Source: Cellulosimicrobium cellulans (GTDB lineage: Bacteria > Actinomycetota > Actinomycetes > Actinomycetales > Cellulomonadaceae). From it: 64,000 nt of DNA. The position numbers were made by a program, and so were the translations under genes. Shown one piece after another: positions 4,568 to 34,626 of the stretch. The notes under the pieces were generated by a model. The model did no database searches. It saw nothing but the letters and a program-made list of their open reading frames with translations, and was not told where the DNA came from. The stretch's first letter is position 1. Each line of letters opens with the position of its first letter. The stretch is from contig NZ_JAFGYF010000003.1 of assembly GCF_016921195.1 (NCBI RefSeq), positions 124,001 to 188,000 on the forward strand, written 5' to 3'.

Positions 4568-4646
4568 GGGTCGTGAGTGGTTTCGACGGCTGGTGAGCAC
4601 CGCACGCGGACACCGCCGGACGCCGGTTCGACTCCGGCACGATCCA
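4568..4646 (+). ncRNA. tmRNA-like tRNA domain without a tag ORF
   Basis: A 79-base unit closes as a tRNA-like end: GGGTCGT (4568-4574) pairs with ACGATCC (4639-4645), followed by A at 4646. A full T arm (GCCGG, TTCGACT, CCGGC) spans 4622-4638. The third pair is G3-T70 and the discriminator is A, the identity signals used by alanyl-tRNA synthetase in tRNA-Ala and tmRNA. In place of a D arm it carries GGTTTCGACGG, identical to the stretch in the host tmRNA of this window. The remaining ~35 bases form two short hairpins and no anticodon arm or tag frame. It is first in the tRNA cluster. Function is inferred only: a decoy, or a rescue RNA without a message. Confidence 0.5.
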
Positions 4647-4778: not shown

Positions 4779-4851
4779 TGAGGTGTAGCTCAGTTGGCAG
4801 AGCGGCTGGCCGTTAACCAGCGCGCCGCAGGTTCGAGTCCTGCCACCTCAG
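4779..4851 (+). tRNA. tRNA-Asn (GTT)
   Basis: A full cloverleaf: acceptor TGAGGTG with CACCTCA, D stem GCTC/GAGC, anticodon stem GCTGG/CCAGC, T stem GCAGG/CCTGC with TTCGAGT loop, and discriminator G. The anticodon loop is CCGTTAA, so the anticodon is GTT (4812-4814). Position 33 is C rather than the near-universal T. CCA is not encoded. Confidence 0.9.
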
Positions 4852-4854
4852 CAA

Positions 4855-4886
4855 GCGTGTGGCATTTGGTCGTCGTGGCCGCACGC
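4855..4886 (+). other. hairpin between tRNA-Asn and tRNA-Asp
   Basis: GCGTGTGGC pairs with GCCGCACGC over 9 bp (one G-T pair) around a 14-base loop, directly after tRNA-Asn. A second hairpin, GAGGG-TGGCAG-CCCTC, follows before tRNA-Asp. Probable precursor processing structures. Confidence 0.35.
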
Positions 4887-4909
4887 CAGAGGGTGGCAGC
4901 CCTCGCCCT

Positions 4910-4983
4910 GCCTGATCGGTCCAGATGGAGTGGACGCCCGCCTGTCGAGCGGGAGACCACGGGTTCAAGTCCCGTATCAGGCG
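4910..4983 (+). tRNA. tRNA-Asp (GTC)
   Basis: The acceptor GCCTGAT pairs perfectly with ATCAGGC, with discriminator G. The D stem is GTCC/GGAC, the anticodon stem CCCGC/GCGGG, and the T stem ACGGG/CCCGT. The loop CTGTCGA gives anticodon GTC. Positions 37-38 are GA instead of the usual AC of bacterial tRNA-Asp. Confidence 0.9.
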
Positions 4984-4987
4984 CGCG

Positions 4988-5019
4988 GAGCCCCGCACCA
5001 CACGGTGAGCACGGGGCTC
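4988..5019 (+). terminator. hairpin after tRNA-Asp
   Basis: GAGCCCCG and CGGGGCTC pair around an inner CACC-ACAC-GGTG hairpin, four bases after tRNA-Asp. The next bases are TAGCTGT, not a long T run. It could be a weak terminator or a processing stem inside the cluster. A further perfect hairpin, GCGTCTCG/CGAGACGC, lies at 5093-5120. Confidence 0.35.
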
Positions 5020-5128
5020 TAGCTGTGCCCCAGGGAGATCCCGGCTACACCTGGTCCCGGGGACGTGCACCCTACGAGGGTGCGGGTGCTCAGCGTCTCG
5101 ACCCGCCCAACCCGAGACGCACCCCGCC

Positions 5129-5206
5129 GTGACGGCGCCACGGTTCGCTGAAAGGTGCAGCCTGGTAAGTCCGCGCTCCGACGCGGTTGAGTCAGGCCGC
5201 CGTCAC
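5129..5206 (+). other. structured RNA element before tRNA-Trp, possible degenerate tRNA
   Basis: GTGACGGCG (5129-5137) pairs perfectly with CGCCGTCAC (5198-5206). Inside, GCCTG (5160-5164) pairs with CAGGC (5193-5197), directly stacked on the outer stem, and encloses a CCGCG-CTCCGA-CGCGG hairpin. The 78-base length and acceptor-like outer stem recall a tRNA, but no T loop or anticodon arm can be drawn. It may be a decayed tRNA or a processing structure. Confidence 0.35.
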
Positions 5207-5213
5207 GTTGCGA

Positions 5214-5284
5214 ATGCCCGAAGTGTTACGGAAGCACGCCGGTCTCCAAAACCGGAAGCCCAGGTTCGACTCCTGGCGGGTGTG
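5214..5284 (+). tRNA. tRNA-Trp (CCA)
   Basis: The acceptor ATGCCCG pairs with CGGGTGT using two wobble pairs. The D stem is GTG/CAC, the anticodon stem CCGGT/ACCGG with loop CTCCAAA giving anticodon CCA, and the T arm is CCAGG-TTCGACT-CCTGG. Discriminator G. The variable loop is short, giving 71 bases in all. Confidence 0.85.
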
Positions 5285-5328
5285 CCCCTCCGACAAGACC
5301 CCCGCGGGGTGTCTGCGACCCTTCCGGA

Positions 5329-5393
5329 CGGTTGTGGCGCGCTAGGAGAGCCTGCGGTGCAACCCCTCTGGGGACACGCGGCAGGCGCAACCG
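5329..5393 (+). other. structured RNA element before tRNA-Tyr
   Basis: CGGTTGTG pairs with CGCAACCG (one G-T pair), and GCCTGC pairs with GCAGGC inside, around a CCCC-TCT-GGGG hairpin. The design matches the element before tRNA-Trp: an outer stem, a one-sided gap, then an inner stem stacked on the 3' side. The last three bases overlap the start of tRNA-Tyr, so the two folds compete or mark the processing site. Confidence 0.35.
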
Positions 5394-5471
5394 GTTCTCG
5401 CACCTGGTGGTGCAGGCGGGCTGTAACCCCGTCGCCTTCGGGCATGCCTGGTTCGATCCCAGGGGACCGGA
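5391..5471 (+). tRNA. tRNA-Tyr (GTA)
   Basis: A class II tRNA of 81 bases. Acceptor CCGGTTC pairs with GGACCGG (one wobble), D stem GCAC/GTGC, anticodon stem GCGGG/CCCGT, a variable arm around GCCTTCGGGC, and T arm CCTGG-TTCGATC-CCAGG. The loop CTGTAAC gives anticodon GTA; position 38 is C where A is usual. Discriminator A. Confidence 0.88.
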
Positions 5472-5484
5472 CAGCAGTCGCCTG

Positions 5485-5586
5485 GTGTGGCTGTCCAGGG
5501 GAAGGCGGTTGGGGTCGCCACGGACCCGCGAACCGTGGGGGTCTGGCCCACCCTCTGAGCCGCCAGCGGCGGCGAACGGGCCACAC
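5485..5586 (+). other. structured RNA element before tRNA-Phe
   Basis: GTGTGGC (5485-5491) pairs perfectly with GCCACAC (5580-5586), which ends exactly one base before tRNA-Phe. Inside are CCACGG/CCGTGG and GCCGCC-AGC-GGCGGC hairpins. It is the third spacer with a tRNA-acceptor-like closing stem. Confidence 0.35.
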
Positions 5587-5658
5587 GGGTACGTAGCTCA
5601 GCGGTAGAGCGTCCGGTTGAAACCCGGAAGGTCGCAGGTTCGACACCTGCCGTCCCCA
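5587..5658 (+). tRNA. tRNA-Phe (GAA)
   Basis: Acceptor GGGTACG pairs with CGTCCCC except for a T4-C69 mismatch. D stem GCTC/GAGC, anticodon stem TCCGG/CCGGA with loop TTGAAAC giving GAA, and T arm GCAGG-TTCGACA-CCTGC. Discriminator A. The mismatch and the C at position 38 are unlike standard bacterial tRNA-Phe. Confidence 0.85.
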
Positions 5659-5663
5659 CGAGC

Positions 5664-5720: not shown

Positions 5721-5808
5721 GGTGAGGCCACCCGAGAGACGGCGACGGGCGCTGATTCGAAACCAGTTGGCGGGCAACCGCGTAGGGGTTCGACCCCCCT
5801 CCTCACCG
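5721..5808 (+). tRNA. tRNA-Ser (CGA)
   Basis: A class II tRNA of 88 bases with acceptor GGTGAGG paired to CCTCACC, a variable arm near GCGGGCAACCGC, and T arm AGGGG-TTCGACC-CCCCT. The anticodon loop TTCGAAA reads CGA. The A31-C39 pair closing the loop is a mismatch and position 8 is C, so it diverges from normal tRNA-Ser. It is the last tRNA of the cluster. Confidence 0.8.
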
Positions 5809-5868
5809 CATCACGTCCGGCGCGTCCCGACAGGGGCGTGCCGGATTTCTTCTACCCAGGGAGGCGCC

Positions 5869-6270: not shown

Positions 6271-6750
6271 ATGCGCACTATCGCCATCCCGGCCCTTTCC
6301 GCTGCGGACGTCGAGAGGTTCTGGTCGTACGTGGACAAGGCCGGTGACTGCTGGCAGTGGACCGCCGGCACGAACAACTACGGGTACGGCCGCTTCGGTC
6401 TCAACGGGAAGCGCTACCTGGCACACCGCGTCGCCCACCAGATCGCCAACGGCACGATCGCCGAGGGCCTCGTCGTGGATCACATCTGCCTCAACCGCCG
6501 CTGCGTCCGCCCCGCTCACCTCCACGCCGTGACCATCAAGCAGAACCTCGAGCGTCGCGCCGGCGCCGCGGCCGACTCCAAGAGCGGGGTCCGGGGCGTC
6601 TACTTTCAAGACGGCTCGTGGGTGGCCGAGGTGCGTTCCAATGGGCGCCTCGCCTACCGCGAGCGGTTCTCCTGCATCGACGCGGCGGCCTTGGCGGTCG
6701 CGTCAGCCCGGCAGCGCATCTTCACCAACATCGAGGAGCTAGCCGCGTGA
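6271..6750 (+). CDS. HNH homing endonuclease with DNA-binding tail
   Basis: A 159-residue protein; the ATG at 6271 has GGGAG upstream. Residues 50-95 carry an HNH nuclease of the HNH_3 type: VDHICLNRRCVRPAHL provides the catalytic His, the Asn and the second His, with two Cys nearby. The C-terminal part, GVRGVYFQDGSWVAEV, resembles the AP2-like DNA-binding unit found behind many phage homing endonucleases. It is free-standing, between tRNA genes and a glycosyltransferase, and its stop overlaps the GTG of the next gene. Such genes spread by cutting related phage DNA. Confidence 0.85.
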   Translation: MRTIAIPALSAADVERFWSYVDKAGDCWQWTAGTNNYGYGRFGLNGKRYLAHRVAHQIANGTIAEGLVVDHICLNRRCVRPAHLHAVTIKQNLERRAGAAADSKSGVRGVYFQDGSWVAEVRSNGRLAYRERFSCIDAAALAVASARQRIFTNIEELAA

Positions 6751-8195
6751 AGATCACCGTCGATGGTGTCGACTACGCCCCGGCCGCCGCAGCACGCCCG
6801 CGCGTAGGGCTGGGGATCACGACGCGGAACAGAAACGAGACGGTCGCGAAGTGCCTCGCGAAGTGGCGGCAGCACTCGCCGGCGGATTTCCCAATCGTGG
6901 TAGTTGACGACGCGTCCGACGAGCCCGTTCCCGGTGCCACGTACCGCTTCGAGCAGCAGGCCGGGATCGCGCGCGCGAAGAACAAGTGCCTGGAGGAGCT
7001 CGAGAAGCTCGGCGTCTCCGAGTACTTCCTGGCTGACGACGACGTCTTCCCCATCGCTGATAGGTGGTGGAAGCCCTACGTGGACTCGAGCGAGCCGCAC
7101 CTGATGCGAATCTTCGAGGACCTCGCGGGGCCGCGCAAGCTCCGCGACATCAAGGTGCTCCATGACGACGGGAAGCATGTCGCCTACACGGGGCCCCGGG
7201 GCATCCTGCTGTACGCGAACCAGAAGGTGCTGGACGCGGTCGGCGGCATGGATCCCGTGTATGGCCTCTGGGGTTACGAGCACGGCGACTGGTCGAACCG
7301 GATTCACCACGCCGGGCTGACGACGTGGCGGTACGCCGACGTGGCCGGGTCCGCGGACCTGATCCACTCGATGGACGAGCACGAGGAGATCACGCGGTCC
7401 GTGCCGGCGCCCGACCGGGCCGCCCTGGTGAAGCGCAACGTGGAGATCCACAACCACCGGATGCGCACGGGGTACACGGGGTACGTCGAGTACCGGGACC
7501 AGGTCGACGTCGTCCTGACGACGCTCCTGACGTCCGAGCCGGACCCGCAGCGCGGATTCAAGTGGGAGCCGGACCCGGGCACGCTGCAGGCGTGGGCGTC
7601 CTCGATCCACGGGGCTCGCGCGGTCGTCCTCGCCGACGAGCTCACGGAGCCGCCCGCCGGCGCGCACCTTGCCCCGGTTCCCGCGGTCGCGATGAACGTG
7701 TACTACCGACGCTGGCTCCACATCTACCAGCACCTCCGCGACCACCCCGAGTACCGGTTCGTCTGGGCAACCGACGGGTCCGACGTCGAGATGCTCAACG
7801 CCCCGTGGGACGACATGGTCCCCGGGCGCGTGTACGTCGGGTCCGAGCCCAAGACGTACGACGACGAGTGGGCGTGGACCAACCACCCCGCGCGCGTCTT
7901 CCAGGACTTCCTGCGCGAGCACCGCCACGACACCATGCTGAACGCTGGGCTTCTCGGCGGGACGCGTGAGGACGTCATGGCGTTCGCCCACGCGATCGTC
8001 CGCGTCTACTACGACCTCGAGTCGGAGCGGTTCTGGGGCAACGAGACCGCGGGCCCCGAGGTCGGAGACATGCTCGCGTTCGGGATCGTGGCGCACACCC
8101 CGCACTTCGCCGGCCGGATCGTGACGGGCCCGCGGGTGCACACCGTGTTCCGCGCCGACGAGCGCACCCCGTGGGCGTGGTGGAAGCACCGGTGA
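6747..8195 (+). CDS. two-domain phage glycosyltransferase (GT-A type)
   Basis: The GTG at 6747 overlaps the preceding TGA, giving 482 residues. The N-terminal half is a family-2-like GT-A domain: GLGITTRNRNE, the nucleotide-binding IVVVDDASDE, RAKNKCLEEL, and the metal-binding YFLADDDVF. From about residue 300 a second domain begins (VYYRRWLHIYQHL, FVWATDGSDVEML) that looks like another sugar-transferase fold with an Asp-rich site. The sugar acceptor is unknown; phage enzymes of this kind decorate DNA bases, capsid or tail proteins, or the host surface. It is followed by a second such gene, coupled by GTGA. Confidence 0.75.
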   Translation: MKITVDGVDYAPAAAARPRVGLGITTRNRNETVAKCLAKWRQHSPADFPIVVVDDASDEPVPGATYRFEQQAGIARAKNKCLEELEKLGVSEYFLADDDVFPIADRWWKPYVDSSEPHLMRIFEDLAGPRKLRDIKVLHDDGKHVAYTGPRGILLYANQKVLDAVGGMDPVYGLWGYEHGDWSNRIHHAGLTTWRYADVAGSADLIHSMDEHEEITRSVPAPDRAALVKRNVEIHNHRMRTGYTGYVEYRDQVDVVLTTLLTSEPDPQRGFKWEPDPGTLQAWASSIHGARAVVLADELTEPPAGAHLAPVPAVAMNVYYRRWLHIYQHLRDHPEYRFVWATDGSDVEMLNAPWDDMVPGRVYVGSEPKTYDDEWAWTNHPARVFQDFLREHRHDTMLNAGLLGGTREDVMAFAHAIVRVYYDLESERFWGNETAGPEVGDMLAFGIVAHTPHFAGRIVTGPRVHTVFRADERTPWAWWKHR

Positions 8196-9693: not shown

Positions 9694-10019
9694 GCGCGGA
9701 CCTGCTGCGACGTGCAGCCGCCAAGATCCGAGACACCGCCCAGGCCGCGACACCGGGGCCCTGGGAGCAGGAGGGGTCATCCATCGCCGCGGGCGAGTTC
9801 ATCATTCTCGACGCCCTCCCCGACGGCGGCACCGGGACGTGGACGAAGCAGACCGCGGACGCTGCGCACGTGGCCATGTGGTCGCCGCTCGTTGCCGAGC
9901 TAGTGGCCCAGTGGCTCGACGACGCCGCCCGCAGGGACGAGCGGAAGCCGCGACCCATGGGCCCCCACGATGTGCAGGCTCACCGCCTTGCGCTCTTCAT
10001 TCTCGGGGAGGACGCATGA
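9690..10019 (+). CDS. phage protein with TPGPWE motif
   Basis: A 109-residue protein coupled by ATGA to its upstream neighbour. It opens with a helix (LLRRAAAKIRDTAQA) and the ATPGPWEQEG motif found in a widespread family of small phage proteins of unknown role. A strand region (FIILDALPDG) and the DAAHVAMWSPLVAEL helix follow, typical of the same family. No enzyme activity is known. Confidence 0.65.
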   Translation: MSADLLRRAAAKIRDTAQAATPGPWEQEGSSIAAGEFIILDALPDGGTGTWTKQTADAAHVAMWSPLVAELVAQWLDDAARRDERKPRPMGPHDVQAHRLALFILGEDA

Positions 10020-33130: not shown

Positions 33131-33142
33131 CAGCGATACCAG

Positions 33143-33506
33143 TGGAGGTGCGGGGAATCGAACCCCGGTCCGGTGACGCCGATCGAGGACTTCTCCGGGC
33201 GCAGTCTGCTGTCGTTTTTCTCGGCCCCCGCACTCACGCAGACAAGGCGCGGACGGGCTCAGTCATCTAAAAGTCCCCGCAGCCCCGATGACGAGGGCTA
33301 CGAGCAGTGGCTCTCTAGATGACGCCAGGATCCGAGTCGAGAGCTAGCTCGGGCTGACGGACTTCGGGGCTCGCTCAGGCGGCGAGGGCGAAGTCGGTGC
33401 GCTTGTTATCGGCACCTGTGGTTTGCAGACATCGTTAACGAGATAAGCCTGCATCCTCGGCCCGCTTCTCCTCGAAGCACGACCACCGTCGAAACCGATC
33501 ACCCCC
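33143..33506 (-). ncRNA. ssrA: tmRNA
   Basis: A 364-base transfer-messenger RNA. The 5' end GGGGGTG pairs with CACCTCC at the 3' end with a G3-T70 wobble, and GGTTTCGACGG follows the acceptor as in all tmRNAs. The T arm reads CGGGG-TTCGATT-CCCCG. The tag frame (33375-33413) encodes ADNKRTDFALAA and a TGA. CCA is not encoded. With SmpB, encoded 650 bases upstream in the same direction, it frees stalled ribosomes and tags the peptide for proteolysis. Its 3' end borders the prophage. Confidence 0.93.
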
Positions 33507-34155: not shown

Positions 34156-34626
34156 TCAGCGCAGCTCGCGCTGGCGCATCGCGCGCTGCGCCTCGCGGTT
34201 GTCCTGCTTCTCGCGCAGCGCCTGCCGCTTGTCGTACTCCTTCTTGCCGCGGGCGAGCGCGATCTCGACCTTGGCCCGGCCGTCGAGGAAGTACAGCGCG
34301 AGGGGCACGATCGTGTGGCCCTTCTCGCGCGTCTTGGACTCGAGGCGCAGGATCTCCTCCTTGTGCAGGAGCAGCTTGCGCTTGCGACGCGGCGCGTGGT
34401 TGTTCCACGTCCCCTCGGTGTACTCGGGGATGTGGACGTTCTCGAGCCAGGCCTCGCCCCGGTCGACGGCGACGTAGCCGTCGACGAGCGAGGCCCGCCC
34501 CATCCGCAGCGCCTTGACCTCCGTGCCCGACAGGACGATCCCCGCCTCGTACACGTCCTCGATCACGTAGTCGTGGCGTGCCTTGCGGTTGCTGGCGACG
34601 ACCTTGCGGCCGGTGTCCTTCGCCAT
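34156..34626 (-). CDS. smpB: SsrA-binding protein SmpB
   Basis: A 156-residue protein from the ATG at 34626; the frame extends upstream but [20 protein letters not shown] is the family start. It shows the OB-fold core [22 protein letters not shown] and [13 protein letters not shown]-type loop, then [21 protein letters not shown], the basic C-terminal tail that becomes a helix in the empty mRNA channel. It brings alanyl-tmRNA to stalled ribosomes. It is next to its partner ssrA. Confidence 0.95.

Follow-up and report, generated by a model that had tools for sequence, protein, structure and literature searches.

Predicted tmRNAs reduced to an alanine-type tRNA-like domain in a Cellulosimicrobium cellulans prophage and in other phages

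The normal pathway of trans-translation by transfer-messenger RNA (tmRNA) is described in PMC8012679, and a survey of phage tmRNAs covers one-piece and two-piece forms (PMC9004378). A tmRNA consisting of the tRNA-like domain (TLD) only was listed for Mycobacterium phage DS6A by Lau and Williams in 2014 (PMC4131195). Citing Mao 2009, the same paper describes a comparable molecule as a strong inhibitor of tmRNA, whether or not it can be charged, and offers titration of SmpB as a possible cause; according to the 2025 tmRNA database paper the DS6A RNA inhibits the endogenous tmRNA in E. coli (PMC11915505). In vitro, SmpB and a TLD-only tmRNA are enough for ribosome entry and peptidyl transfer (PMC2481249, PMC3929946), and by the account of these two papers Shimizu and Ueda (2006) obtained polyalanine with the same components, the chain being handed from TLD to TLD. 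The subject of this work is a 79-base RNA gene in a prophage of Cellulosimicrobium cellulans, located in a stretch of 64,000 nucleotides (contig NZ_JAFGYF010000003.1, positions 124,001 to 188,000; hereafter the window), together with similar units in viral contigs. These RNAs, which appear to contain only the TLD of a tmRNA, are called mini-tmRNAs.

The window RNA is a further example of a known, thinly described kind; the breadth of the family and the kept alanine identity were not found in print. The author of an earlier note on this DNA, made from the sequence alone and without a search, knew of no such RNA; the DS6A RNA had already been described in print (PMC4131195, PMC11915505). Compared by its description, the DS6A RNA is likewise phage-encoded, comprises hardly more than the TLD and is proposed to act on host tmRNA or SmpB. 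However, it is a single phage case in the literature found, whereas 119 distinct units from 171 viral loci are reported here, most of them with a capped P2 stem. The open-access literature yielded no paper on such a family, although most subscription journals and bioRxiv lay outside the search and absence is therefore unproven. Full-length tmRNAs of the Rfam family RF00023, such as the host ssrA and the full tmRNAs annotated in phages Sushi23 and Riptide, share with the mini-tmRNA the G3-U70 acceptor, A73, the D-loop motif, P2 and the T arm. In contrast, the mini-tmRNA has neither tag frame nor pseudoknots, and in the RF00023 alignment of the window copy 20 bases span 312 model positions. Organelle tmRNAs without a coding region, seen in jakobid mitochondria and Mallomonadaceae plastids, have also lost the message (PMC11915505), but they are organelle genes, and the mitochondrial ones have a targeted SmpB whereas the phage records searched have none. 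The TLD construct that served for the crystal structure with SmpB (from T. thermophilus; 25 and 34 bases linked by a UUCG loop) is nearly identical in design, a small loop closing its stem (PMC3929946); it is man-made, and the phage RNAs differ from it by a purine-rich internal bulge and an additional small hairpin.

The mini-tmRNA of the window occupies positions 4568..4646 of the plus strand, and its CCA end is not fully encoded. From 5' to 3' it consists of the acceptor strand GGGTCGT (4568..4574), GAGT, GGTTTCGA, a P2-like stem-loop CGGCTGGTGAGCACCGCACGCGGACACCGCCG, GAC, the T arm GCCGGTTCGACTCCGGC, and, at 4639..4646, the acceptor strand ACGATCC (4639-4645) followed by A73 (4646). All seven acceptor pairs form, with G3 opposite U70. 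The combination of G3-U70 and A73 is the signal for alanyl-tRNA synthetase. The T arm at 4622..4638 reads GCCGG-TTCGACT-CCGGC. The tmRNA D-loop motif GGTTTCGACGG at 4579..4589 is matched exactly by host ssrA (minus strand, 33486-33496); when one mismatch is allowed, 2 matches are found against 2.7 expected by chance, and the motif alone proves nothing. The P2-like stem CGGC(T)GGTG/CACC-GCCG (4587..4618, strands 4587-4595 and 4611-4618) is capped by the hairpin CCG-CACG-CGG (4600-4609), both obtained by constrained folding. The stem-loop that separates the D loop from GAC comprises 32 bases in total, too few to hold a tag frame or pseudoknots, and the RNA has no anticodon arm. The window copy possesses the alanine-type acceptor (G3-U70, A73), D-loop motif, P2 and T arm of a tmRNA, and it lacks the tag reading frame and the pseudoknots. 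The earlier note had recognized the pairing ends with their G3-T70 wobble and A73, the perfect T arm, the motif shared with host ssrA and the missing anticodon arm, tag frame and pseudoknots, with all of which direct reading agrees, and it had overlooked the P2-like stem with its small hairpin on top.

The likeness of the window copy to the viral units exceeds chance. Model R1 was built from eight viral-contig sequences of one length, the window copy being excluded, and it matches the window copy with 64.9 bits (E 3.1e-16). Each of the 49 sources given to R1, all chosen beforehand as members and with seven seed loci among them, yielded a unit, the weakest member scoring 48.9 bits; the best non-member in 481 kb is a tRNA-Ala with 28.0 bits, and host ssrA reaches 27.7 bits. 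Models R2 and R3 include the window copy. R3 scores it at 71.7 bits, and with R2 at E<=1e-6 it is the sole match across 396 whole genomes of its order. The top Rfam model on a 111-base segment containing the window copy is the tmRNA model RF00023, with 37.7 bits and E 2.7e-14. At gathering scores no Rfam model matches the window copy, and a longer stretch showed only a weak tRNA-Sec match. ARAGORN makes no call at the window copy. An ordinary tRNA (RF00005) was rejected as an identity: the RNA has no D arm or anticodon arm, and neither an ARAGORN call nor a listed RF00005 match. A two-piece (permuted) tmRNA was also rejected, the RNA being a single piece from 5' acceptor to 3' acceptor that scores only 10.9 bits with tmRNA_permuted. 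The tmRNA models were those that the earlier note had wished to see applied, and assignment to an ordinary tRNA, which it had named as a ground for abandoning its reading, did not come about.

Viral contigs were scanned with five patterns, none of which specifies an acceptor base. The first scans, which sought the D-loop motif at the proper distance from the T loop, gave 83 matches, 73 of them with a full 7-bp acceptor and T arm; two of the 73, L062 and L088, are tRNAs. The second anchor, the apical hairpin GCCGCAYGCGG plus a T arm, leaves the D loop out of the pattern and gave 75 matches, ten of them in known loci; the acceptor is full in 74, of which 73 have G3-U70 and 73 have A73. With GGTATCGAC as the third anchor, 50 of 62 matches have a full acceptor, 47 of these with G3-U70, and the other three were set aside as tRNA-like. 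The five scans gave 220 pattern matches, loci from two scans being counted twice. The acceptor or T-arm test was failed by 23 of the 220, among them L318 and L336, which still reach 49.1 and 51.9 bits with R3. Five tRNA-like loci (L062, L088, L329, L344 and L352) were removed before counting, and in all but L352 an ARAGORN tRNA overlaps the match. The total is 119 distinct units from 171 viral loci, 102 of the units being 78-80 bases long.

The acceptor is conserved unevenly among the 119 units. G1-C72 and G2-C71 are present in all of them, G3-U70 in 118 and A73 in 116, whereas pairs 4 to 7 show four to six pair types each. Since G3-U70 persists in 118 of 119 units next to variable pairs 4-7, and since no scan pattern contained an acceptor base, alanine charging appears to be under selection. 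The sole exception to G3-U70, L279 (106-187), has G3-C70 and C73, while L317 (13959-14038) and L360 (3179-3258) have an alanine signal altered to T73. The viral contig of L317 also holds a Pistol ribozyme (9872-9957, 58.6 bits). Among the 42 units of the first D-loop anchor, 13 contain exact CCGCACGCGG or CCGCATGCGG and six contain no hairpin of the tried classes; the respective numbers for the 29 units found from GGTATCGAC alone are four and eight, and these classes include a loose pattern (CC, 5-8 bases, GG) that is little informative in G+C-rich RNA. In L265, L299, L300, L302, L308 and L309 the D loop has GGTTTAGCCC or GGTTAGCCC in place of GGTTTCGAC, with acceptor signal, hairpin and T arm unchanged.

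The proposed structure is accompanied by extensive covariation, which is strong in P2 and in the acceptor. Alignment A5 contains 91 distinct rows picked by the author, mostly one per distinct unit; it omits eight rows of alignment A4 (L110, which equals L013, and L028, L043, L047, L060, L078, L082 and L084) and keeps L279, which has no alanine signal. In A5, which like the smaller alignment below was fitted to the model and thereby favours the structure, 97.6% of pair cells are standard versus 68.9% in shuffles, and the covariation score is 0.699 versus 0.136 when shuffled and at most 0.082 when slid. Two-sided changes occur at 18 of 22 pairs, and not one of 500 shuffles is as high on any of five measures. 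All seven P2 pairs have changed on both sides, variation is lower in the apical stem, and G3-U70 is present in 90 of the 91 rows. An earlier set of 47 distinct rows gave 97.0% pairing, a score of 0.642 versus 0.134, and G3-U70 in every row. The same P2 emerged from folds that predate any model and in which only two of its pairs, those adjoining the D loop, were enforced.

Ten named phages with hosts in Streptomyces, Pontimonas and Stenotrophomonas carry a mini-tmRNA. R1 identified it in Streptomyces phages LuckySocke, pSt2308 and BRock and in Pontimonas phage phiPsal1; further carriers are Streptomyces phages GiJojo, Shaeky, Alone3, Riptide and Sushi23 (the last at 55.3 bits) and Stenotrophomonas virus Jojan60. 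Vibrio phage D239 is marginal, at ~40 bits. None of the ten records has an RNA annotated at the unit, eight showing no feature and two a hypothetical protein, and the family has probably been left unannotated because ARAGORN does not call such units. In L084 (2976-3318) and L028 (5905-6228) ARAGORN calls of full tmRNAs with odd tags overlap mini-tmRNAs; these calls are probably false. RF00023 passes its cut-off, with a match of ~81 bases, in 18 of 20 carrier records, as it does in 8 of 11 further loci and, among five more named phages, with the Shaeky, Jojan60 and GiJojo units. An SmpB gene was found in none of 20 carrier records and none of five more, records that may be fragments (the first search comprised 21 non-host records, one of them a non-carrier), so that host SmpB would have to serve. 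With R3, phages Faust, Phredrick, Asterius and Phabba, each with an annotated full tmRNA, gave no match above 32 bits.

The surroundings of the unit differ among carriers. It is surrounded by tRNA genes in Shaeky and in the larger Streptomyces phages, and its neighbours common to the related phages LuckySocke, pSt2308 and BRock are tRNAs, an RNA ligase and an RNA-binding protein. In phiPsal1 it lies between protease and capsid genes, and no tRNA was called nearby. ARAGORN found a tRNA in 15 of 43 loci and none in 28, some of these loci being only 1-2 kb long and one, L214, not being a known carrier. Neither a tRNA operon nor a prophage next to ssrA is a fixed setting of the mini-tmRNA. A search of related prophages, suggested in the earlier note, had a mixed outcome: of 62 terminase relatives found, 43 were searched and one has the unit, many of these loci ending before its expected position, and the unit was found in phages without a terminase link. 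The one carrier, L213, has the unit upstream of the terminase, as in the window. The glycosyltransferase beside the tRNA array was rejected as a lineage marker, being too widely shared; the RNA is present in 0 of the 35 loci given to R2 (of 51 found). When the window unit was compared with phages by blast, no record had 80% query cover, and the best E values among the matches listed were 3-9.

The mini-tmRNA is rare in bacterial genomes. Among 17 genomes of the genus, the pattern occurs only in the window's own. A search of the phylum matched 3 of 396 genomes, namely the window, the weak L365 (43.9 bits) and L366 (41.7 bits), which is tRNA-like by eye. A scan of genomes, in which the gap allowed was narrower than for the viral contigs, returned 17 stretches, three of which were taken as real: L101, L106 and L108, in metagenome-assembled genomes of Mycobacterium, Tepidimicrobium and Actinomyces, respectively. 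Blast of L101 against phages gave no match.

The window copy belongs to a prophage of ~52.4 kb. A 22-bp attachment-site (att) repeat within the ssrA 3' end (33142..33163) has a second copy at -19227 (G000:C17 ~104773), 52.4 kb away, which places the prophage in ssrA and sharpens the earlier statement that it adjoins this gene. The surrounding prophage genes encode an exonuclease, a glycosyltransferase, terminase, portal, head, tape-measure and minor tail proteins and an amidase; the 79-base RNA, hardly more than a tRNA-like domain, thus lies in a prophage that has terminase, portal, tape measure and att repeats. As noted earlier, the mini-tmRNA heads a phage tRNA operon. Downstream of it in the same array, on the plus strand, ARAGORN called tRNAs for Asn, Asp, Trp, Tyr and Phe (4779..5659); a probable sixth tRNA, by eye Ser(CGA), at 5721..5807 (plus) has a weak match to the tRNA-Sec model (24 bits) and no ARAGORN call. 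A terminator-like hairpin lies 3' of the array at 5815..5846 (plus; one found versus 0.5 expected in shuffles), and a consensus search found no sigma-70 promoter. The glycosyltransferase beside the array (6357-8195, PHROG 1579) has relatives in mycobacteriophages and enterobacterial phages. Host ssrA, a complete tmRNA with the tag ADNKRTDFALAA, is encoded on the minus strand at 33140..33506 (ARAGORN; RF00023, 153.7 bits). Host smpB, the genome's only SmpB match, lies on the same strand at 34171..34599 (G000:C17:158171-158599; PF01668, 207.5 bits).

The mini-tmRNA is probably a phage tmRNA cut down to its TLD; chargeable and message-less, it would vie with the host's tmRNA for both SmpB and stalled ribosomes. 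Host RNase P, the CCA enzyme and, through G3-U70, alanyl-tRNA synthetase would mature and charge it. Host SmpB would then bind the RNA, EF-Tu would carry it to ribosomes stalled without a codon, and there it would take over the nascent chain. Having no message, it would offer neither tag nor stop codon, and the resulting competition would lower tagging and proteolysis during infection. The unit seems to keep the features for charging, for SmpB and EF-Tu and for ribosome entry, without those needed to continue, and competition is its likeliest role. The reading in the earlier note is partly supported. The evidence favours an RNA of tmRNA type that has alanine identity but lacks a tag frame, and action as a decoy or block of trans-translation is still the leading mechanism, while the novelty of the RNA and its tie to an ssrA prophage and a tRNA operon have fallen away.

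Several observations weigh against this interpretation. The window copy, at 37.7 bits, does not reach the RF00023 gathering cut-off of 47 bits and was not listed in a whole-genome RF00023 search at E<=0.001; the Alone3 unit scores 36.8 bits with this model, and the Riptide mini-tmRNA is not listed. Left unconstrained, the window copy has a minimum-energy fold (-37.9 kcal/mol) in which the acceptor forms but neither the T arm nor P2, the tRNA-like fold lying 5.5 kcal/mol above it, and among the 119 units unconstrained folds keep the acceptor in all and the T arm in only 72. The first two acceptor pairs are as invariant as G3-U70, so that conservation there may partly have other causes. Of the 48 units found by the hairpin anchor only, 35 keep GG..TCGA and 13 have lost it, and with the D-loop motif lost in some members, contact with SmpB may not be general. 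Riptide (L246, PV654398 83298-83374) and Sushi23 (L374, MF358542 86734-86810) each have a mini-tmRNA plus an annotated full tmRNA, a combination that a simple block does not predict. Finally, the published inhibition acts whether or not the RNA is chargeable (PMC4131195), which leaves the kept G3-U70 unexplained. The kept signal suggests that charging matters, which pure titration of SmpB would not need, and the divergent D loops together with the two phages that have both RNAs indicate that roles may differ within the family.

A role that needs charging would suit the retention of G3-U70 in 118 of 119 units, and one such role is template-free alanine tailing, in which the charged mini-tmRNA and SmpB would add one or several alanines to each stalled chain, repeatedly, and free or mark it without a coded tag. 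The in vitro polyalanine synthesis agrees with this (PMC2481249, PMC3929946), but the published effect of an RNA of this kind is inhibition of tmRNA, with SmpB titration offered as the cause (PMC4131195), and tailing is considered unlikely. Were it true, the kept G3-U70 and the capped apical hairpin would be marks of a gain of function and not of a mere sponge. The corresponding broader proposal is likewise doubtful: a phage family would have made tmRNA into a message-less, alanine-charged device which, together with host SmpB, goes into stalled ribosomes, tails nascent chains and overrides coded tagging. To our knowledge no alanine-tailed product has been described in cells. There is a similarly small chance of rescue without tagging, whereby the RNA would accept the chain, the ribosome would be dismantled and the chain freed, the phage regaining ribosomes and its proteins escaping proteolysis. 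In favour of such rescue, mitochondrial tmRNAs devoid of a tag frame have been retained alongside SmpB and, as has been suggested, may still help, whereas the same paper says that the DS6A form inhibits tmRNA (PMC11915505).

It is improbable that the mini-tmRNA is an alanine-carrying RNA for another use, such as binding EF-Tu or alanyl-tRNA synthetase or supplying a tRNA-dependent enzyme, with SmpB uninvolved. G3-U70 does persist even where the D-loop motif is lost, but the tmRNA D loop is kept in most units (35 of the 48 found through the hairpin anchor only), most units tried pass the RF00023 cut-off, and the named-phage stretches read contain no enzyme beside the unit that is common to different host groups. 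Least probable by far is a functionless degenerate tmRNA or att leftover of ssrA. The prophage does sit in ssrA, and island integration is said to yield tmRNA gene fragments (PMC4131195). However, both ends of the RNA are present and correspond to each other and not to host ssrA (3' end ACGATCCA versus CACCTCCA), units occur in phages of other hosts, the att copy lies elsewhere, and the covariation over 91 sequences already contradicts decay; this explanation was rejected.

Competition with host tmRNA thus remains the preferred reading, and trans-translation is a likely phage target. The TLD-only design, on record for one phage in the literature found, has now turned up again in Streptomyces, Pontimonas and Stenotrophomonas phages as well as in numerous viral contigs, and the named phages of laboratory Streptomyces strains offer test material. 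The family also raises the question of why the alanine signal would be kept if the RNA merely soaks up SmpB.
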